Assembly: GCA_019237135.1 (NCBI GenBank)
Contig: JAFAHQ010000184.1
Coordinates: 1 to 34,933 of the forward strand
DNA length: 34,933 nt
Source of the DNA: Alphaproteobacteria bacterium
Lineage (GTDB): Bacteria > Pseudomonadota > Alphaproteobacteria > ATCC43930 > CGMCC-115725
Direction of reading: 5' to 3'
Shown: positions 10,575 through 24,701 of the stretch, in pieces
Layout of the letters: every line of letters starts with the position of its first letter
Position numbering within the stretch: the first letter of the stretch is position 1
Notes under the pieces: generated by a model
The model's database searches: none
The model's input: only the letters and a program-made list of their open reading frames with translations
What the model was told of the DNA's origin: nothing
Made by a program: the position numbers and the translations under genes

Positions 10575-12506
10575 TCAGGGATGCACCGGCGTTGAGACGT
10601 CTGAAGACGCCGATTTCGCTCGCGCGTCGGAAGTGTCCAGCCAGAACGTATCCGGCTTGAAGATCCCGAAAAAAGCCCCGGGATCCCAATTGTAGGACCC
10701 TTCTTCCGGGACGTTGCGGAGTCTTTCGCTCACCACCACCGGCTGGAGGACACCCGCAACCGTGCCGATCGAAAAAACCTCATCGGCCCATATCTGCAGC
10801 ATGGCATGCCAAATCCGGGACTGGTCCGCCGGCAGTGCTGCGCCGAGCCAATCCTCGTAGAGCTCCTTCAGCCGCGTCGCAGACGGCAAATCAGGGGATT
10901 CGCCGGCCTTACCCTTCGTCTCATAATATTGACCCCATTTTGGCCATTGCAGCTGCTGTTGACTCGTAGGGGCGAATTCCCAGGGCGACATCTGGGCCGT
11001 CGCAAGACCGTTCTCGATCCCTTTGTCGATCGACATCAACGTCTCACCTGAGAAGACCCGACGCCGGAACAAGGTCAGCTGCAAGGGCTTGGCAAAAAGC
11101 CTTATTCCGATGCGCCGCCAAGAATCGCGTACCAGCTCCAATACGTCCGATTGTTCGGTCGATTCACCTGAATTCTCTACGATGATCTCCATGGGTCGAT
11201 TATCCGGAAGGAGACGCATACCATCACTGTCGCGCTTTGTAAGCCCGATCAAATCGAGAAGGCGGTTGGCCTCACGCGGGTCGAAGTTTGCCCAGGCCGA
11301 GCGATACTCGGGTTCGTAAAGCGGGCTCTGCGGCAAAACCGTGTTCTGTCCCTCGATCGCCAGCCCGAAGTAGATCGCCTGATTGATCTCGTGTCGGTTG
11401 ACCGCCAGCGACAAGGCGCGACGAAAGCGCAGGTCGCGAACTAAGGCCCGCCAAGTCTCATCGTTTACGTTGAGGTTTGGATAAAGAGCGAGCTGACTGC
11501 CTGGACCGGTGCGCCAGAGGTGTACCTTGTAATTGTTGCGCTGCTCGCTTTCTTTGAGAAATGTGTAATTATCGAAGCGCAGATAGCGCGCCTGGAGGTC
11601 GCTCTCGCCCGCGCCCGTTTTTGCCGGGATGATCTTGCTGTCGGCAATCGACATTATGACGCGGTCGATATATGGAAGCTGATGCCCGGCTTCGTCGACA
11701 CGATAATAATAAGGATTTCTTTCGAATATAAACCTATCCGAAGGTGGTTTCGTCTTCAGTATCCAGGGTTCCAAGGATGGCAGGTTAGGGTTGTCGTTGC
11801 GGTACATCGTATCCATCCTGGCATGCAGCGCCGCCCAATTGCGTTGGTTATGTGTTTTGACGAGCGCGTCGAGCGTGACCTTATCAGCGAATTTTTCATG
11901 GAATTGCTTCAGATAATGTGACGGGCAATAGATGTAGAGCGGGTCTGCCCCGGCAAGATTAGGCAGAAACAATGGATTCGGCCGGGTCCAGACGTAGCGA
12001 ACCGTAGTTTCGTCGAGGACTTCGAACCGAGGCATCTCGCCTTGCACCATCATCGATACGGGTAGGCCTGAGGGCGATAACTGGTTATTTTGCGCGACAT
12101 CCTCGAACCAATAGCGGAAGTCCTCGGAGGTAAAGGGATGCCCGTCCGACCATTTGTGTCCGCTACGCAAATGGAGCGTGAAGATCCGGCCATCTTGGAC
12201 ATCCGCCGAGGTCAGGATATCGGGCACGAGGGTCAGCGCAGGTGTATAACCCACCAGCCGTGCATACCCGTAAACCACCATCATACGGGTGTCCTTTGGC
12301 CCGCCCATCAACATCCGCAACTCGCCGCCGGGATTGCCGATTGTTTCGGATCCCGCCACCTCCGGGTCGCTTGGCAACCGTTCGTTAACCCTGGACAGCT
12401 TTCCGCTGGCTACTTCCTGCGTGAAAAACGGCGACTCCTGCAGCTCGCCTCGCACTGTGCTGGGAACTGCTATCGAGAGAGCCAAGACGAGGCCGATCGT
12501 CTTCAC
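10575..12506 (-). CDS. Periplasmic substrate-binding protein, SBP family 5
   Basis: Binding protein of the ABC importer, 643 residues from the chosen GTG. That start is supported by GGGAGGA just in front and by the residues that follow: Val-Lys, then a hydrophobic stretch to about residue 20, a classic secretion signal without a lipobox. A frame extending to 12572 would add 22 polar residues before the signal and overlap the ATPase gene. The mature part shows family 5 features such as 'LHLRSGHKWSDGHPFTSEDF' and 'ERNPYYYRVDEAG.QLPYID', and is long like the oligopeptide and oligosaccharide binders. The ligand cannot be read from sequence; relatives take peptides, opines or alpha-galactosides. 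Composition is somewhat less GC-rich than its neighbours. Confidence 0.92.
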   Translation of the reverse strand: MKTIGLVLALSIAVPSTVRGELQESPFFTQEVASGKLSRVNERLPSDPEVAGSETIGNPGGELRMLMGGPKDTRMMVVYGYARLVGYTPALTLVPDILTSADVQDGRIFTLHLRSGHKWSDGHPFTSEDFRYWFEDVAQNNQLSPSGLPVSMMVQGEMPRFEVLDETTVRYVWTRPNPLFLPNLAGADPLYIYCPSHYLKQFHEKFADKVTLDALVKTHNQRNWAALHARMDTMYRNDNPNLPSLEPWILKTKPPSDRFIFERNPYYYRVDEAGHQLPYIDRVIMSIADSKIIPAKTGAGESDLQARYLRFDNYTFLKESEQRNNYKVHLWRTGPGSQLALYPNLNVNDETWRALVRDLRFRRALSLAVNRHEINQAIYFGLAIEGQNTVLPQSPLYEPEYRSAWANFDPREANRLLDLIGLTKRDSDGMRLLPDNRPMEIIVENSGESTEQSDVLELVRDSWRRIGIRLFAKPLQLTLFRRRVFSGETLMSIDKGIENGLATAQMSPWEFAPTSQQQLQWPKWGQYYETKGKAGESPDLPSATRLKELYEDWLGAALPADQSRIWHAMLQIWADEVFSIGTVAGVLQPVVVSERLRNVPEEGSYNWDPGAFFGIFKPDTFWLDTSDARAKSASSDVSTPVHP

Positions 12507-12540
12507 ACCGCTCCTCCCTATCGGTTTTTCGTCTCTCCAA

Positions 12541-14448
12541 TTATGCCGAGACGGCGTTGCTGGCCTGAGCAACCCTCGCAGACGGCGACATCCTGGCCTC
12601 CACCCAATGGTCTGGACCGATCTCGATGAGAGGCGGTGCGTTCAACGGTTCACGGCGAAACGGCTCGGGCCAAGAGGCCGGGTCCGAGGCTTTGTCCTCC
12701 ATTAACCGGTGGAAGTCGAGGGAGCGCGACGGGTCAGGCGTGGGCACGGCCGCGAGCAGGGCCAAGGTGTAGGGATGGACTGGGTTGCGAAACAGCGTTG
12801 CGCGATCGGCGATTTCGACGATCCGACCGGCACACATGACTGCGATACGATCGGCAATATAGTCGATAACCGCGAGGTTGTGGGAAATGAAAAGGTACGT
12901 GAGCGAGAGCTTTTTCTTCAAATCCACTAACAGATTGAGAATCTGCGCTTGGATCGAAACGTCGAGCGCCGATGTCGGCTCATCGCAGATCACTAGATCA
13001 GGCCGCAACGCAAGGGCGCGCGCAATACCGATGCGCTGGCGCTGACCTCCGGAAAAGCTGTGGGGGTAACGTTTGAGATGGCGGGGGTCGAGGCCAACGA
13101 GGATGACCAGTTCATGCACCATCTCACGACGCGAGCGAACATCACCGATCCCGTGGATCACGAGTGGCTCTTCGATGATATCATAGACCGTCATCCGCGG
13201 GTTCAGCGATCCGAACGGGTCCTGGAAGATGAATTGCACCTGCCGCCTAAACCGCTTCAAATCCTCGCCATCCAGACGGAGCACATCGATGAGCCTTCCG
13301 CGGTCGTTGAAGCGGATCGCTCCTGAATCGGGTGATACAGCCCGCAGCAGCAGTTTGCTCAAAGTCGTTTTCCCGCACCCACTCTCGCCGACCAGCCCAA
13401 GACACTCGCCGCGCTCGATTCTCAGGCTGATCCCATCGACGGCAACGACTTGAGGACCCGATCGTCCGCCTCCAAACCACCCGCTCTTGCGGATGGTAAA
13501 GGTCTTTCGTACGCCGACGCACTCGACCAGCGGGCCATCTGCACCAACTGGCCATTCCGCTTTTTCGGCCATCAGATGCGGCGCATCTCCAGGGCGGATT
13601 TCGCGGATTGGGACGAGACGCTCGCCGGGCTTCATGTCGAAGTGGGGAACGGCCCGCAGCAGCGCCCGCAGATAAGGATGCTCCGCTTGACGAAAGATAT
13701 CATCGAGGGTACCGCTCTCCATGACCTCGCCGTGGTACATCACCACAATTTCCTCGGCGACATTGGCAACGACACCAAGGTCGTGGGTGATCAACAGCAC
13801 TGCCATGCTGAGCTCATGTTGGAGCTCTATGATCAGCTTAAGGATTTGCGCCTGGATGGTCACATCGAGCGCGGTCGTCGGCTCGTCAGCAATCAGCAGC
13901 GCGGGGCGGCAGACCAGCGCCATTGCAATCATAGCGCGCTGACGCAGCCCGCCGGACAGCTCAAAAGGGTAGCTACGCAGAGCCCGCTTGGGGTCTGGAA
14001 ATCCAACGAGTCGCAGCATCTCCTCCGTCAATTCAGAGGCTTGTGCAGCGCTCACTGGTCGATGGAGGCGCAGCGCTTCGCTGACCTGATTGCCGATGGT
14101 ATGAACGGGGGACAACGAGGTCATAGGCTCTTGGAAAATGATCGAAATGCGCCCACCTCGGATCGCTCGCATCTGCGGACCATTGTCCGGCAGTTTCACG
14201 AGATCGACGACCTCGCCGTCGAGCCGGGGATCAGTAAACAAGATCTCGCCGCGGGTGATCACCCCGCTACGCGGCAGGATGCGGAGGATGGTCTGACTGA
14301 CCACCGACTTTCCTGAGCCGGATTCGCCGACGAGCGCCACGGTTGATCGCGGTCGCACGCGGAACGAAACTCCCCTAACCGCCCGGATAAAGCCGCCTGG
14401 GGCGGCGAAGCGAACATGAAGGTCGCGGATTGTGAGGAGATCGGTCAA
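12541..14448 (-). CDS. ABC importer ATPase, two fused nucleotide-binding domains
   Basis: Supplies both ATPase domains of the importer in one 635-residue chain, as in YejF-type systems. Domain 1 has Walker A GESGSGKS (41-48), Q-loop FQEP, signature LSGGLRQR (164-171) and Walker B LLIADEP. Domain 2 has GESGCGKT (354-361), FQDP, signature FSGGQRQR (465-472) and LVICDEP. Each domain is followed by the HPY-containing oligopeptide-transporter C-terminal element. All catalytic motifs are intact. The start is TTG at 14448, with GGGAGGG in front; it overlaps the stop of the small membrane protein as TTGA. The binding-protein gene starts 34 bases after its stop. Confidence 0.95.
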
Positions 14449-17070: not shown

Positions 17071-18177
17071 TCACGCTGCACAAGGACGACAGACCGCATC
17101 GATCACCGCAGCCAGTCGACGAGCAGCGGCCGGGAGATCATGCTCCACGAGTACGCGCCGCCGCGCCGCTTTTGCGAACACCGACCGCCGACCGCGATTG
17201 AGGATCACACTACGCACCGCCGCAGCAAAGGCAAGGGCGTCACCAGGCGCAACGAGAAGTCCAGTGACCTCCGGCACGACGATTTCTCCAACTCCACCGA
17301 CTGCCCCGGCCACCACGGGCAACCCACTGGCCTGCGCCTCGAGCAGCGCCATGCCATAGGCTTCGTTGCAGGCGGGCCAGACGAAGAGATCCGCCACGGC
17401 AAGTCGCTCCGCGATCGCCGCATGGTCGAGCGACCCCATCCAGGTCACCCGCTCGTTGAGCGGCGCGAGTGCATTCTCAGCATCGCGTCGGGCCGGACCG
17501 TCGCCGACCACTTCCAACGACCAAGGCAAATCGAGCAGATGAGACAGCGAGTCACCCAGAAGGCGATACGAGGCGAGCTTGTCGCCCTGGCGCATCATCG
17601 CGACCGTTATCAGGCGGGGCGGCCCGCCCGCCGGTTTCCATATTTGACCGTAGCTCGCCGCATCGACAAACGGCTTGAGGGCAGCCCAGCGCCAAGGCTC
17701 CCGCAGCAACGGCAAGATGCATTCCCGATCTTTCGAGTTCAGTCCGATTACCGCGTCAGCTTTTCGGATCGCGCTTTCGGCGGCGCGATGGCCCACCGCC
17801 CAAGCACCGCATCTCTGTGTCGGGGTCACGGAAGCCTCGGCGATGACATACGGGATGCCAAGCCTGCCCGCGATTGTCGGCCCCAACCAATCGGGCGCCT
17901 TGTGATAGACATGATAAGAGAACCAAAGTTCTGGCGTAAATTCAGGAAACGCTTGGTAGTGGCGGAGAAGACGGTCCGCGATCCGCTCTCCGAGTACGGC
18001 GAGTCGGGCCTGTCGAGGCGCGTCGCCACACCCCTCAAAGCTGCGAAAGCGTGAGACGAGAATGGGCTCATGTTTGACAAGGCGTAAGGCGGCGAGGAAG
18101 AGCTGCGCAATTTGACGATCACCCGACGGGACCGGATGATCAGGCGGTTTCAACGGCGCGTAGAAGCCGATGCGCAT
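17071..18177 (-). CDS. Glycosyltransferase family 4 protein, copy 2
   Basis: 368-residue GT-B glycosyltransferase. The start is set at ATG 18177, where the protein opens with MRIGFYAPLKPP, the usual beta-strand and loop of the acceptor domain; a longer frame to 18258 adds 27 atypical residues. The C-terminal donor domain contains LEVVGDGP (about 221-228) and the E-x7-E motif in NEAYGMALLEAQASG (E272, E280), then 'VGGVGEIV' and 'GLLVAPGD'. No membrane segment or signal is present. It lies 67 bases after the upstream GT4 gene and is probably in the same transcript. A transfer to a lipid-linked or polysaccharide acceptor is expected, but the sugar cannot be stated. Confidence 0.9.
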   Translation of the reverse strand: MRIGFYAPLKPPDHPVPSGDRQIAQLFLAALRLVKHEPILVSRFRSFEGCGDAPRQARLAVLGERIADRLLRHYQAFPEFTPELWFSYHVYHKAPDWLGPTIAGRLGIPYVIAEASVTPTQRCGAWAVGHRAAESAIRKADAVIGLNSKDRECILPLLREPWRWAALKPFVDAASYGQIWKPAGGPPRLITVAMMRQGDKLASYRLLGDSLSHLLDLPWSLEVVGDGPARRDAENALAPLNERVTWMGSLDHAAIAERLAVADLFVWPACNEAYGMALLEAQASGLPVVAGAVGGVGEIVVPEVTGLLVAPGDALAFAAAVRSVILNRGRRSVFAKAARRRVLVEHDLPAAARRLAAVIDAVCRPCAA

Positions 18178-18244
18178 GCGCCTAGGACCATGCTGTTGAG
18201 CTATTTCTACAACCGTTGAGGCAGGAGAACGGAGAACCGGCTGC

Positions 18245-19573
18245 CTACAAAACCGCATCTACCCCAAGGCGATGGGTATCGCGCAACGACCGGGAGGCAT
18301 CCCGCAAACTAAGCGGCCGCCCATTGGCCGGAAGCAGTCCAAAGCGCACCGCGAGCACATCGATCCCAGATTTCATAGCGAAGTTGCGGTGCACGCGGCG
18401 TTCCCCAGCGGCGCCCAGCACCGCACGCCTTGAGGGATCGCGGATTAGCGCGCTCATGGCTTGAGCAAGCCCGACCGGGTCATCGGGAGGCACGAGCAAC
18501 CCCGTCACTCCTTGCTCGACCAACTCGGGGATCCCTGATACATCGGTTGCAACACACGCGAGCCGCTGGCTCTGTGCCTCGAGCAAGACGTTCGGTAGGC
18601 CATCGCGGTCGCCGTCCTTCGCTACTTTCGAGGCGAGCACAAACAGATCCGCTTGACGATAAGCAGCGAGCACGTCGGGTTGGGCCAAGGCGCCGCGCCA
18701 TTCGATGCGGTGCGACAGACCCAGACGCCGGGCTCGATTGGTCAGCGCGGTCGAGAGCACGCCCCCGCCGACATGGATAAAACGCCATTCGAGGCGGCTC
18801 GGCAAAAGCGCAAGTGCATCCAGCAGATCGTCATAGCCCTTCTTGGCGACCAGCCGGCCGACCGAGACGATAATGACAGGATGCTCGAGATCGCTGCCGT
18901 CCGCGCCCTTTGAGCGGATCGGGGGCGGCGGAAATCGCTCAAGGTCGAGCCCATGATAGCAGAGTGTAACCGCATCCGGGCGCGAAGCGAGGTTGGCGAG
19001 ATGACTGCGCCCGGCCTCGGTGCAGGTTACCACCCAGCTCGCCTCGGCAAGCTTTTTGCGCTTCTCCCATGCCGGAAGCGTCCAGATGTCCTTGGCGTGC
19101 GCTGAAACCGTCCATCTGAGACCGACAGTCATGGCGGCATAGCGGGCGACGGAGGCCGGGGTATGGAGGAAATGCGCGTGGAGATGGTTGACGTCTGCGG
19201 GAAGCTCCGCCACCAGCACCATGGCTTGGCCGAAGCGGCGGATACGGTTCGGGGTCGGGTCCCGCCACAAATCCGCGAGCCACGCAGATCTGGCTGCGCC
19301 GTAGCCCGGCAGCCGGCGCGAGCGCCGCCAGCCGCGCCACACCCGGTGGGGCTCCTGGTATAAATATTCCGGAAGATAGAGCAGCGCGGCGTGGATCAAC
19401 TGCTGGACCGGATGCGTGGCGCGATCTGTCGGGTGGCGCAGCGACACGATCAGGATTTCGAGCCCGCGTCGCTCGAGAGCAGCGATTTCTTGAGCGATAA
19501 AGGTCTCGGAAAGCCGCGGATACCCTTTCAGAACGAAGGCGACGCGACCGGGGCCTCCGGGGAATGGCTGCAC
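18245..19573 (-). CDS. Glycosyltransferase family 4 protein, copy 1
   Basis: 442-residue GT-B glycosyltransferase. GTG at 19573 is chosen because it lies 5 bases after the upstream stop and only a few residues before the first strand (VAFVLKGYPRLSETF, the usual opening of this subgroup). A longer frame to 19636 would overlap the upstream gene by 58 bases. The donor domain shows VSVGRLVAKKGYDDLL, then DGLPNVLLEAQS, where Asp stands in place of the first Glu of E-x7-E, and 'VSGIPELVEQGVTGLLVPPDD'. It resembles colanic acid or exopolysaccharide biosynthesis transferases of the SETFI type. It shares the operon with a second GT4 and two MurG-like proteins. Confidence 0.9.
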   Translation of the reverse strand: MQPFPGGPGRVAFVLKGYPRLSETFIAQEIAALERRGLEILIVSLRHPTDRATHPVQQLIHAALLYLPEYLYQEPHRVWRGWRRSRRLPGYGAARSAWLADLWRDPTPNRIRRFGQAMVLVAELPADVNHLHAHFLHTPASVARYAAMTVGLRWTVSAHAKDIWTLPAWEKRKKLAEASWVVTCTEAGRSHLANLASRPDAVTLCYHGLDLERFPPPPIRSKGADGSDLEHPVIIVSVGRLVAKKGYDDLLDALALLPSRLEWRFIHVGGGVLSTALTNRARRLGLSHRIEWRGALAQPDVLAAYRQADLFVLASKVAKDGDRDGLPNVLLEAQSQRLACVATDVSGIPELVEQGVTGLLVPPDDPVGLAQAMSALIRDPSRRAVLGAAGERRVHRNFAMKSGIDVLAVRFGLLPANGRPLSLRDASRSLRDTHRLGVDAVL

Positions 19574-19578
19574 CGACC

Positions 19579-20805
19579 TTAGGCCTCGAGACGCTCGCGG
19601 GCCGCAAAGCAGCCAGCCCTGCCCTCGTCGAGCCATCTTCGCGCACGCCGATTGACGGTTCGCATGCCGTCCAGCAACCCCGGGATCATCGCGGTCGAGG
19701 GCGGCGGCTGCTCGGTCAGCCGCCGGATTGCCCCCGCCATCACTCTGGGGTCGCGTCCCTCTTCCTCGGGAAGCATCGTCAGAAGGCCGAGTTCGGCAGC
19801 GCGTCGCGCCCTGATGAACTGCTCGAGACGGGGGGCTGTTCGCGGCACGATCAGCGCTTTCTTGTCGAAGGACAGAATTTCGCAGAAGGTGTTGTAACCA
19901 CCCATCGCGACCACGCCGGCGGCGCGCGCCATCAGTGACTCGAGGCGGGCGTTAAAGGTGATCGTCCGGACGTTCTCGAGACGCGCGGCACGGCTTGCGA
20001 ACCACGCTCGTTGCTCGGGTTGCATGAAGGGCCCGAAGACGATCAGTGCAGGCAGCGGCATGGCTCGGTCATGTTCGTAAACTGCCAACACCAAATCGAT
20101 CAGCGCTTCGCCGTCGCCTCCGCCGCCGGGTGTCACCAGCACGAAATCCCTTTCGAGAAGATCCAGAATATCGGGGGTAGCCTGAGGCTCGGACGCGCTG
20201 CGTCGAAGATAACCGGTGTAGGTCATCCGGCGTCGCACGCTGGTCGGCACCGGAAGCCCCGCGAGTGGATCGCAGATTTCCGGCAGGCCGTATACCCAGA
20301 TATCGTCGTAATACTCCGCCAGCGCCGGGACCGCTTGCTTGCGTTCCCACTCGCTCTCGAGCGCCTCGGGATCGTCCATCACGTCGCGCAATCCCAGGAC
20401 CAGCGCCGTCCCGCGGCGTTGCAATAAATCCAACGTGTCGCGCACCTCGCCGCGCAGTCCCAAGGGCTCCTTGTCGACGATCAAGAGATCGGGGTCGAAG
20501 ATGTCTGCGGTATGGCGGATAATCGAGGAGCGCATCGCCAGGGTCTCCTCGATATCGATGTGCAAACTAAGCGAGACATATTCTCCGTTGCGCAGCTTGA
20601 TCACCCCCGGCACGCGCACAAAATCGACGCGAGAGCGGAAATCGAAACTGCCGATGATCGGCGACCCGGAAAGAATCAGCACCGAAACGGCAGGGTCCTC
20701 ATCCACGAGGGAATGAGCGATTGCCCGACAGCGACGCAAATGCCCAAGCCCGAAGCTATCGTGGCTATAGACGAGCACCCGTTTATGGTGACGGCGAACG
20801 GTCAC
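19579..20805 (-). CDS. MurG-like glycosyltransferase (COG4671 type), copy 1
   Basis: 408-residue predicted glycosyltransferase, first gene of the leftward glycan operon. The N-terminal loop is DSFGLGHLRRC (16-26). The C-terminal domain has LVTPGGGGDG (223-232) and MGGYNTFCEI (301-310), then ALIVPRTAPRLEQ.IRA, the donor-binding region of MurG-like proteins. No signal peptide or membrane helix is visible. The gene starts 70 bases from the divergently transcribed ABC gene and ends 5 bases before the GT4 start. It is a paralogue of the protein at 15778-16995, with different loops. Function beyond glycosyl transfer is not predictable. Confidence 0.86.
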   Translation of the reverse strand: MTVRRHHKRVLVYSHDSFGLGHLRRCRAIAHSLVDEDPAVSVLILSGSPIIGSFDFRSRVDFVRVPGVIKLRNGEYVSLSLHIDIEETLAMRSSIIRHTADIFDPDLLIVDKEPLGLRGEVRDTLDLLQRRGTALVLGLRDVMDDPEALESEWERKQAVPALAEYYDDIWVYGLPEICDPLAGLPVPTSVRRRMTYTGYLRRSASEPQATPDILDLLERDFVLVTPGGGGDGEALIDLVLAVYEHDRAMPLPALIVFGPFMQPEQRAWFASRAARLENVRTITFNARLESLMARAAGVVAMGGYNTFCEILSFDKKALIVPRTAPRLEQFIRARRAAELGLLTMLPEEEGRDPRVMAGAIRRLTEQPPPSTAMIPGLLDGMRTVNRRARRWLDEGRAGCFAARERLEA

Positions 20806-20875: not shown

Positions 20876-23686
20876 ATGAAGGCGATCGCCGTCAAAGGAG
20901 TGTCAGCGCTGCTCAGCACCGCCGAAGAGGCCCTTCGGCCGGCACGGTATTGGCTCGGATTTGCCCCATGGCGGCACAAAGCAGCGGCTCCCGCACCGGC
21001 GAGGAAGCCGAAACCGGAAGCCGAAGACCCGAGCGCGCTGGAGCCGACACTCTATCGCTTCATTCTTCGGCACAGCTTAGGGGCACAGATTTTTCTTCTC
21101 GTGCTGACGCTTATCTCTTTCCCCTTTCTTTACTATTCGCTCCTGCTCCCGAAAACGATTACCGACGGCGCGATCAAAGGCGGCAAACAGTTTCCACTGC
21201 ACATTCTGGGGTTCGAGCTTGATCAGATCAGCTATTTGATGGTCCTCTGCGCCGCGTTTTTGGGTCTCGTTTTTATAAACGGCGGATTCAAATACTACAT
21301 CAATACTTACAAAGGACGGCTCGGAGAACGGATGCTGCGGCGGTTCCGTTATCAGCTGTATCAGCGTATGTTGCTGTTCCCACTGTCGTATTTTCATAAG
21401 AACTCGTCAGCCCAGATCATTCCGATGATCACCGTTGAGTGCGAGCAGCTGGGCGGGTTCATCGGCGACTCGTTTGTTACCCCGCTGTCCAACGGGGGCC
21501 AGTTGCTGACGAATATTTTCTTCATGTTCATGCAGGATTGGATCCTCGGCTTGGCGGCGGTCGCGCTATACCCCGTGCAGGGCTACTTGATCCCGAAATT
21601 GCAGTTCAAGGTAAACCAACTCGCCAGGCGCCGGGTGCGCACGATCCGCCAGGTAGCCGACCGCGTCCAGGAATCGGCGACCGGCATTGCCGACATCCAA
21701 GCCAATGACAACGCTCGCCTTCAACTGAGCGGTTTTGCCCATCTGCTGGGCACGATTTACGACATCCGCTTCGAGAGCTATCAACGCAAATTTTTTGTCA
21801 AGTTCCTAAACAACTTTTTGGGACAACTAACACCCTTCTTTTTCTTTTCGATTGGCGGTTACCTGGTGCTCATAAATAAGCTTTCTGTGGGCGCGCTCGC
21901 GGCGGTGCTTCTCTCCCAAAGGGAGCTGGCGTCGCCGTGGAATGAACTGCTCGGCTTTTATCAGATCTTCCAGACCTCCAAGATCACGTACGAGCAGATC
22001 GTCGAGCAATTCCAGCCCGCCGGCATGATGGATGCTCGGCTCCAGCTCGAGGAGCCGGGCGTGGTGACGCCGCTGACCGGCGAACTCGTCGTCGCCAATT
22101 TGTCGCTCGCCGAGGACGGCGGTAGCCGCATACTCGACGGCATCACCTTCAGCGTCCCGCTGGAAGCACATGTAGCAGTCATCGGCCAAGGCGGCAGCGG
22201 CAAAAACGAGCTTGCTCTGGTGCTCGCGCGCCTGACCCGGCCGACAAGCGGCCGCATACTGATCGGCGGCATGGACCTTGCCGCCCTGCCGACCGCCGTA
22301 ACCGGCCGCCGGATCGGCTATGCCGGGGCGGCTCCCTATCTGTTTGCCGGAACCTTACGCGACAATCTTTTGCTCGGCCTGCGCCACCGCCCGATCCGAC
22401 CGGCCGAATACGATCCGGGGAGCGACAAACGTCGTTCTTCCCAGATCTACGAAGCGCGGCGGTCCGGCAACATCGACTTCGACCTTCACGCCGACTGGCT
22501 TGATTACGAGAGCGCCGGGGTCGCCGACAAAGCGGGTCTATCGGCGCGCATAACCGAAGTTCTGGCCCGTCTCGATTTCGACGAGGTCGTCTACACTTTG
22601 GGGCTGCGTTGGCGGCTTGATCCCGAAGCCCAGTCCGAAGCAGCTGCACGGCTTCTCGAAGCGCGCAGGACGCTTGCCCGTCGGCTCAGTGAGGACGGCA
22701 TCGCCAACCTCGTTGAGACTTACGACGCCGATCGGTTCAACCTCAACGCATCGGTCGCGGAGAACCTGCTCTTCGGAACTCCGATCGGTCCGGCCTTCGA
22801 CTTCGAGGCGCTCGCCGACAATACCTACGTGTTGCAGGTTCTGACCAAGGTCGGGCTGATCGACGACCTCGTCGAAGTCGGTAAGCAGGTGGCCGAGACG
22901 ATGATCGAATTGTTCGCCGACCTGCCAGCCGATCACGAGTTCTTCGAACAATTCAGCTTTATCAGCGCGACCGACCTGCCGGAGTTCGTCGCGATCCTCG
23001 GGCGCATCGGCGCCGATGGGACGAGGGCACTCTCCAGAGCCGATCGCACCAAGCTGCTCTCGTTGCCGTTCAAGCTCATCCCGGCGAGACACCGGCTCGA
23101 CGTTCTCGACCAGACGATGCAAGACCGCTTGCTCGAGGCGCGCAAGGTGTTTCGAGCCGATCTTCCGGCGGAGGCGCAGTCGCAGATCGAGTTCTTTGAT
23201 GCGGAGCGCTATAACGCGGCCGCCTCGGTACAGGACAATATCCTGTTTGGTAAGATCGCTTATGGCGAGGCCGACGCACCGGTCCGCGTTCCTTCCGCGG
23301 TTGCCGAGGTGGTCGACGAGTTGTCCCTGCGGCAAACCATCATCGAGGTCGGGCTCGAGTACAATGTCGGGACCGGCGGATCGCGGCTGTCTTTCGCCGA
23401 GCGCCAAAAGGCGGGGATAGCCCGCGAGGTGCTCAAGCGTCCTGATCTCTTGATCCTCAACGAGGCGACCTCGGCGCTCGACGGACAGGGGCAGTCGAGA
23501 GTGACCAAGGGCTTGAAGGACGAGTTTGCGGGTCGAGGCATCATTTGGGTGCTGCATCGAGCCAACCTCGCCAAGGACTTCGATCGCGTTCTCGTTCTCA
23601 GCAATGGCAAGTTGGAGGAGCAAGGCGCGCCGTCCGAGCTCGACGGCAACGGGTCGCTGATGTCCTTGCTGATCGCCGCCGAATGA
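20876..23686 (+). CDS. ABC-exporter-like protein with a divergent, interrupted ATPase domain
   Basis: 936-residue membrane protein. Residues about 65-350 form a six-helix exporter-type transmembrane domain, with cytoplasmic helices around 145-190 and 245-300. The ATPase domain begins near 400. Its Walker A is GQGGSGKN (437-444), with Asn where Ser/Thr should bind magnesium. The Q-loop reads YAGAAPYLF (482-490), with no glutamine. The signature is LSFAE (838-842) instead of LSGGQ. Walker B reads LLILNEATSALD (858-869), with Asn for the Asp but the catalytic Glu kept; the switch His (894) is present. Between Q-loop and signature lies a 340-residue insertion containing a duplicated module. The protein may hydrolyse ATP poorly or act as a regulated or structural transporter. 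It is first in a cassette with a cyclic-nucleotide-binding protein and a methyltransferase. Confidence 0.88.
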   Translation: MKAIAVKGVSALLSTAEEALRPARYWLGFAPWRHKAAAPAPARKPKPEAEDPSALEPTLYRFILRHSLGAQIFLLVLTLISFPFLYYSLLLPKTITDGAIKGGKQFPLHILGFELDQISYLMVLCAAFLGLVFINGGFKYYINTYKGRLGERMLRRFRYQLYQRMLLFPLSYFHKNSSAQIIPMITVECEQLGGFIGDSFVTPLSNGGQLLTNIFFMFMQDWILGLAAVALYPVQGYLIPKLQFKVNQLARRRVRTIRQVADRVQESATGIADIQANDNARLQLSGFAHLLGTIYDIRFESYQRKFFVKFLNNFLGQLTPFFFFSIGGYLVLINKLSVGALAAVLLSQRELASPWNELLGFYQIFQTSKITYEQIVEQFQPAGMMDARLQLEEPGVVTPLTGELVVANLSLAEDGGSRILDGITFSVPLEAHVAVIGQGGSGKNELALVLARLTRPTSGRILIGGMDLAALPTAVTGRRIGYAGAAPYLFAGTLRDNLLLGLRHRPIRPAEYDPGSDKRRSSQIYEARRSGNIDFDLHADWLDYESAGVADKAGLSARITEVLARLDFDEVVYTLGLRWRLDPEAQSEAAARLLEARRTLARRLSEDGIANLVETYDADRFNLNASVAENLLFGTPIGPAFDFEALADNTYVLQVLTKVGLIDDLVEVGKQVAETMIELFADLPADHEFFEQFSFISATDLPEFVAILGRIGADGTRALSRADRTKLLSLPFKLIPARHRLDVLDQTMQDRLLEARKVFRADLPAEAQSQIEFFDAERYNAAASVQDNILFGKIAYGEADAPVRVPSAVAEVVDELSLRQTIIEVGLEYNVGTGGSRLSFAERQKAGIAREVLKRPDLLILNEATSALDGQGQSRVTKGLKDEFAGRGIIWVLHRANLAKDFDRVLVLSNGKLEEQGAPSELDGNGSLMSLLIAAE
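22616..22789 (+). repeat. Protein-level module A inside the ABC insertion
   Basis: Encodes residues about 581-638. It contains LLEAR (593-597), then about 20 residues later YDADRFN, then ASVAENLLFG (625-634). The last element mimics the segment that normally follows the Q-loop in exporters (GTLRDNLLLG at 492-501 here). Module B repeats the same order. Confidence 0.65.
23096..23266 (+). repeat. Protein-level module B inside the ABC insertion
   Basis: Encodes residues about 741-797. It contains LLEAR (752-756), FDAERYN and ASVQDNILFG (783-792), in the same order and nearly the same spacing as module A. With the original post-Q-loop segment this gives three '[DE]N-x-L-[FL]-G' elements in one ATPase domain. 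The nucleotide sequences have diverged, so the duplication is old. Confidence 0.65.
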
Positions 23687-24194: not shown

Positions 24195-24701
24195 TTGCTC
24201 GTGAGCCGGCTCGACAGCTTTATCCGCCGCCTCAAGGCGCAGCGCGCATGCCTCGATCTGGCAGCCCGTCTAATCGCGGAATTGGATGGGGACGTCCTCG
24301 AGTTGGGGCTCGGCAACGGCCGGACCTACGACCATCTGCGCTGGCTTTTTCCAGACCGGAAAATATACGTCTGCGAGCGGAGCGTTGCCGCCCACCCCGA
24401 TTGCGTGCCGCCGCCCGAACTCCTCATCCTGGGCGACATGCGTGATACCTTGCAAACAGCCCACGAGCTGCTTGGAGGTCGTATGGCTCTCGCCCATCTC
24501 GACCCTTCTACTGGGGACAGTGTGGCAAGCAAAGCACTCGCGGCGGAGGTTGCACCCCTAATCCTGCTGCTTCTGCGTCCAAGCGGGTTGCTGGTCAGCG
24601 AGCCTGCGATCGCCGACGATCGGCTGGTCCCCTTACCGCTACCAGAAAGGGTCGCTCAAGGCCGTTATAATATCTACCGGTACGTCAGTTGCCGATCGTA
24701 A
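24195..24701 (+). CDS. Small class I SAM-dependent methyltransferase
   Basis: 168-residue protein with a Rossmann SAM-binding start: motif I is VLELGLGNGRTYDHL (34-48), followed by the strand 'IYVCERS' with the acidic residue expected to hold the ribose. ALAHLD.STGD matches the motif-III region. It is short for the family and may lack a separate substrate domain. The start could be TTG at 24195, directly after the preceding stop, or GTG at 24201. Its 3' end overlaps the convergent xthA by 17 bases. The substrate is unknown; lipid, sugar or protein targets are all possible given the membrane/glycan setting. Confidence 0.78.
   Translation: MLVSRLDSFIRRLKAQRACLDLAARLIAELDGDVLELGLGNGRTYDHLRWLFPDRKIYVCERSVAAHPDCVPPPELLILGDMRDTLQTAHELLGGRMALAHLDPSTGDSVASKALAAEVAPLILLLLRPSGLLVSEPAIADDRLVPLPLPERVAQGRYNIYRYVSCRS

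Follow-up and report, generated by a model that had tools for sequence, protein, structure and literature searches.

ABC exporters are generally regarded as driven by ATP, and a degenerate nucleotide site in such a transporter is normally rescued by a canonical one. The locus described here raises the question of how an exporter-like protein may work when its own ATPase motifs are altered. It lies in a stretch of 34,933 nucleotides of alphaproteobacterial DNA, referred to as the window, from a 77%-complete genome assembly in 423 contigs. An ABC exporter with changes in Walker A, Q-loop, signature and Walker B had been predicted at this position, and both the open reading frame and all four changes were recovered as first described, with the non-canonical residue classes recurring in 146 homologues; the Lys, catalytic Glu, D-loop Asp and switch His said to be retained are also present in the protein. 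The features of the locus are listed in Table 1.

Table 1. Features of the ABC exporter-like gene, its product and the neighbouring genes in the window (residues refer to the 936-aa protein).
Feature	Position	Strand	Evidence or occurrence
ABC-exporter-like protein, 936 aa, interrupted NBD	20876..23686	+	ORF; Pfam ABC_membrane and ABC_tran in two stretches; 384 relatives
Transmembrane domain (TMD), ABC exporter type I, residues 55-390	21038..22045	+	PF00664; AlphaFold/Foldseek matches to P-gp, TmrAB, MsbA
Walker A, GQGGSGKN, residues 437-444	22184..22207	+	position 444 Asp/Glu in 107/146 relatives
Repeat 1, native Q-loop segment without Gln, residues 480-502, IGYAGAAPYLFAGTLRDNLLLGL	22313..22381	+	
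Insert between Q-loop and signature, residues 503-783, predicted mostly helical, confident model	22382..23224	+	
Repeat 2, residues 612-640, LVETYDADRFNLNASVAENLLFGTPIGPA	22709..22795	+	N630 in 146/146, G634 in 140/146
Repeat 3, residues 771-799, IEFFDAERYNAAASVQDNILFGKIAYGEA	23186..23272	+	N788 and G792 in 146/146
Signature, LSFAERQK, residues 838-845; family form LSxAQRQK	23387..23410	+	
Walker B and D-loop, LILNEATSALD, residues 859-869	23450..23482	+	Asn/Ser replaces Asp in 112/146
Switch His 894	23555..23557	+	His in 59/146 relatives
Cyclic-nucleotide-binding partner, CRP-like ligand domain only, 160 aa	23712..24194	+	PF00027
Methyltransf_17 SAM-methyltransferase	24195..24701	+	PF12692; 62/95 loci
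Glycosyltransferase, GT28-C-like, divergent	19579..20805	-	PF04101; 80/95 loci
GT4 glycosyltransferase, conserved neighbour	18245..19636	-	
GT4 glycosyltransferase, conserved neighbour	17071..18258	-	

The six-helix membrane domain of type I ABC exporters was recognised in the protein both by Pfam (ABC_membrane at residues 106-346, PF00664, 66.1 bits) and by Foldseek matches to type I exporters, which extended to the whole AlphaFold chain (mean pLDDT 81). The nucleotide-binding domain (NBD) is not the contiguous, canonical ABC_tran domain of these exporters: in the Pfam scan, as in the genome scan, ABC_tran falls into two separate pieces with ~280 aa between them, and none of the 146 homologues is fully canonical. 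From the Q-loop segment (480-502) to the signature (838) there are ~335 residues, ~280 beyond an ordinary exporter. Membership of the MsbA family was not obtained, the best NCBIfam score being to TIGR02203 (MsbA) at 193.6 bits against a cut-off of 602. We regard the architecture of the family as well supported; its function we infer.

Within the insert region the Q-loop/"NLLFG" segment recurs twice, so that the protein has three tandem copies in all. Profile-profile comparisons with hhalign (54-61 columns) gave E-values of 6.7e-13, 1.7e-7 and 2e-6 for R2-R3, R1-R2 and R1-R3, with scores of 79.8, 46.8 and 41.0, respectively; column shuffling, done 40 times for each pair, scored 19.4 at best. 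A canonical exporter profile from the same genome matched R3 (E 7.5e-36), R1 (E 2.3e-9) and, weakly, R2 (E 3e-4); the start of the Q-loop/helical subdomain is therefore present three times, and only the third copy continues into the signature and Walker B. At the level of sequence, a tandem triplication of the Q-loop segment is demonstrated, and structural modelling predicts an extra helical lobe on the NBD, the insert modelled alone reaching an AlphaFold pLDDT of 89. Full second NBD copies within the insert were considered and rejected: hhalign reached weakly from repeat 2 towards the signature/Walker B of repeat 3, and robust similarity is limited to ~55-60 columns that run from the Q-loop segment on into the helical subdomain. 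Identity with a known domain was likewise ruled out, as the insert has no family in Pfam or NCBIfam and a structure search with its predicted fold returned no PDB entry below E 1.

In none of the 146 aligned homologues is the ATPase site fully canonical, and in many it is degenerate. The Walker A Ser/Thr at position 444 is replaced in 131 (Asp 57, Glu 50), with Ser remaining in 8 and Thr in 7, and the Walker B Asp in 126 (Asn 89, Ser 23), with Asp retained in 20. Lys 443 is present in 91 and the catalytic Glu in 89; both occur together in 73 homologues and both are absent from 39. Gln is found in the Q-loop of 29, the window protein reading IGYAGAAPYLF at this site. As a control, a canonical Walker A (GK[ST]) is present at each of 20 further ABC ATPase loci sampled in the window's genome, and DE wherever Walker B was detected by pattern. 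Rhizobial members lack both Lys and Glu, with NR where DE is expected (Rhizobium etli, GPNGSGAE and FNRPLSALD; Mesorhizobium, STATGGAE), whereas Lys, Glu and His all persist in the clade to which the window protein belongs. A FastTree tree based on the TMD alone requires at the fewest 20, 17 and 21 independent changes for Lys, Glu and His, respectively, counts that are approximate because the tree is quick and has several long branches. Walker A is wholly gone from one lineage (L101-L104, L170 and L171), with up to three paralogues per genome and, in several cases, the cyclic-nucleotide-binding (cNMP) domain fused to the ABC protein. A compensating charge swap between Walker A 444 and Walker B 862 is unsupported, acidic residues at 444 occurring with Asn/Ser in 62 sequences and with Asp in 7, and Ser/Thr with Asn in 8 and with Asp in 2.

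Local decay or sequencing error can be ruled out as the cause of these changes, since the full canonical set is found in none of the homologues and, in Walker A and Walker B, the replacing residues fall into the same classes throughout Alphaproteobacteria; the exception is the signature Glu of LSFAE, which is nearly private to the window (1/81 close homologues, 7/146 overall) and whose gag codon is one base off a Gln codon. The gene had been thought intact and selected for, and it is indeed under purifying selection, with dN/dS of 0.09-0.24 in the TMD, NBD core and insert against the nearest relatives, values that are approximate at a dS near or above 1. Homologues with canonical motifs at the same positions had been named beforehand as the finding that would overturn the original prediction, and no fully canonical one occurs among the 146. 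As for the conservation of the four changes, it holds family-wide for Walker A and Walker B and breaks down for the variable Q-loop Gln and for the signature Glu. The earlier interpretation is supported in part: its description of a regulated or half-active transporter fits the window protein as a putative one, but it had overlooked the ~280-aa insert, the three Q-loop segments and the cyclic-nucleotide partner.

A genome-contig scan returned 384 encoding relatives, the best 80 of which are 48-75% identical to the window protein, mostly full length and nearly all labelled Alphaproteobacteria or Proteobacteria. A member at E < 1e-100 was present in 59 of 190 genomes of Alphaproteobacteria (about a third), including R. 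etli and Sinorhizobium meliloti, and a profile of the insert run against 399 genomes of the phylum found matches in 31, every one of them Alphaproteobacteria. Members reside on plasmids (R. etli p42e, S. meliloti pSymB, Mesorhizobium, Azospirillum), and the window's genome holds one. This is an old, unnamed family of transporter-like proteins, so far confined to Alphaproteobacteria. Neither a paper describing it nor any activity, interaction, biochemical or phenotype report for a member was found in open-licence PMC papers. In the S. meliloti 1021 pSymB record, the member (L111:7443-10194) is split into two overlapping frames of 237 and 762 aa, which places a frameshift in the part encoding the TMD; intact versions exist among its relatives. 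There are also TMD-only relatives: one of 413 aa (L091:3940-5181, minus strand) has no NBD and shares 40% identity with residues 25-375, its gene being flanked by CopB/multicopper oxidase genes on one side and by a gene for a PCu(A)C copper chaperone on the other, and similar proteins of 320-380 aa occur in other genomes (L092-L100).

The ABC gene is genetically coupled to a cNMP-binding protein. In 85 of 92 eligible loci the gene for the latter comes next downstream in the same orientation; in six loci (L059, L070, L101, L103, L104 and L112) the domain is fused to the C-terminus of the ABC protein, with an additional GGDEF domain in L059 and L070 (ABC-cNMP-GGDEF). In R. etli CFN42 the ABC gene and that of its cNMP partner are RHE_RS24195 and RHE_RS24190. 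L109, a further candidate fusion, was discarded, its ABC and cNMP parts being in different frames. The Gly, Glu and Arg of the cNMP ligand site are retained in 91, 88 and 92 of 92 partner sequences, respectively. In most loci, divergent glycosyltransferase genes lie upstream of the ABC gene, and an OppDF-like ABC importer and a methyltransferase are frequent nearby; no canonical half-exporter recurs in the conserved neighbourhoods examined. The window itself carries a gene for an OppDF-like fused double-ATPase importer and one for a probable substrate-binding protein (12541-14448 and 10575-12572, both on the minus strand), both of which recur in family neighbourhoods, and the R. etli and Azospirillum loci likewise have genes for importers dependent on substrate-binding proteins. 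At a Mesorhizobium locus (L090; 1-1458, 14034-15197 and 16889-18229), two genes annotated as adenylate/guanylate cyclases, together with a DUF3095 gene, surround the ABC-cNMP pair.

Several known systems resemble this family in part. MsbA-type (type I, ABCB-like) exporters are alike in TMD and NBD, by sequence and predicted structure, but lack the 280-aa insert with its two extra Q-loop repeats, the non-canonical Walker A and B and the cNMP partner. HetC of Nostoc is a peptidase-containing exporter whose cNMP-type domain is required for function and binds ppGpp, and whose ATPase Glu is essential (PMC10986499); it shares with the present family the coupling of an ABC exporter to a CRP-like ligand domain. 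In HetC, however, an N-terminal cNMP domain is combined with a C39 peptidase, whereas here the domain is encoded by a separate 3' gene or fused C-terminally and the ATPase site is degenerate; with no peptidase in Pfam scans and no N-terminal cNMP domain, the protein does not belong to the HetC/NHLM-type CNBD-coupled peptide exporters. Exporters in which one nucleotide site is degenerate (TM287/288, TmrAB, CFTR, ABCG5/G8) likewise have altered catalytic residues kept by selection, that site usually being paired with a canonical one (PMC7756269). These vary mostly in the Glu or the signature, whereas in the present family the Walker A Ser/Thr is changed to Asp/Glu and every member is non-canonical. 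By analogy, the protein could heterodimerise with a partner that provides the canonical site, as in TM287/288 or TmrAB; with no evident canonical partner in the conserved neighbourhoods and a single family member in the window's genome, this is very improbable.

An ordinary ATP-driven exporter with relaxed motifs is easier to entertain, if still doubtful: Lys and Glu would hydrolyse ATP, Asp/Glu/Asn in Walker A and Asn/Ser in Walker B would tune the rate, and the insert would be a docking or regulatory domain. The 73 homologues with both Lys and Glu, among them the window's clade, which adds His, and a nearly canonical LSxAQRQK signature speak for it. Half of the family, however, lacks Lys and/or Glu with the architecture unchanged, and in P-loops generally an acidic residue at the Walker A Ser/Thr position is expected to hinder Mg-ATP binding. 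The altered Walker A and the NR of rhizobial members, and the lineage without any Walker A, are consistent with a pseudo-ATPase receptor or channel, in which the NBD would be no transport motor and the TMD would serve as a cyclic-nucleotide-gated flippase, facilitator or signalling module; so are the cNMP and GGDEF fusions and the conservation of ligand residues in the cNMP partner while the ATPase residues erode. Yet many members, that of the window included, have both Lys and Glu, and the predicted structure still shows the exporter fold, so that this reading appears unlikely.

The explanation we favour, at a confidence just short of an even chance, is a homodimeric glycoconjugate transporter derived from an ABC exporter, controlled by cyclic nucleotides, with a triplicated Q-loop lobe and weak or absent ATPase activity. 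A type I exporter-derived protein would act as a homodimer, the segment running from its Q-loop into the helical subdomain being triplicated in tandem to form the predicted extra lobe on the NBD, and the adjacent or fused cyclic-nucleotide-binding subunit would control its conformational cycle. Cyclic-nucleotide control is suggested because of the adjacency, the six fusions, the intact ligand residues, the ABC-cNMP-GGDEF fusions and the cyclase genes at the Mesorhizobium locus. The cargo, exported or flipped, would most likely be a glycoconjugate made by the divergent glycosyltransferases, as judged from their conservation upstream. In clades with Lys and Glu, such as that of the window, ATP may be a slow or structural ligand; since the window's clade keeps Lys, Glu and His, it may also hydrolyse ATP in the usual way, if slowly. 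A bolder proposal, and a rather improbable one, is that the lineage has abandoned ATP hydrolysis as a driving force and moves a glycoconjugate, by export or flipping, under cyclic-nucleotide gating through the triplicated lobe.

Together, the family conserves its architecture while the ATPase residues are repeatedly lost, and it is tied to a cyclic-nucleotide sensor. As the ATPase site is never fully standard and repeatedly lost while the repeated insert and the cNMP sensor are kept, these proteins may be powered or switched differently from ordinary ABC pumps. The natural series from members with Lys and Glu to members without both allows one to ask what role a non-hydrolysing ABC nucleotide-binding domain plays.
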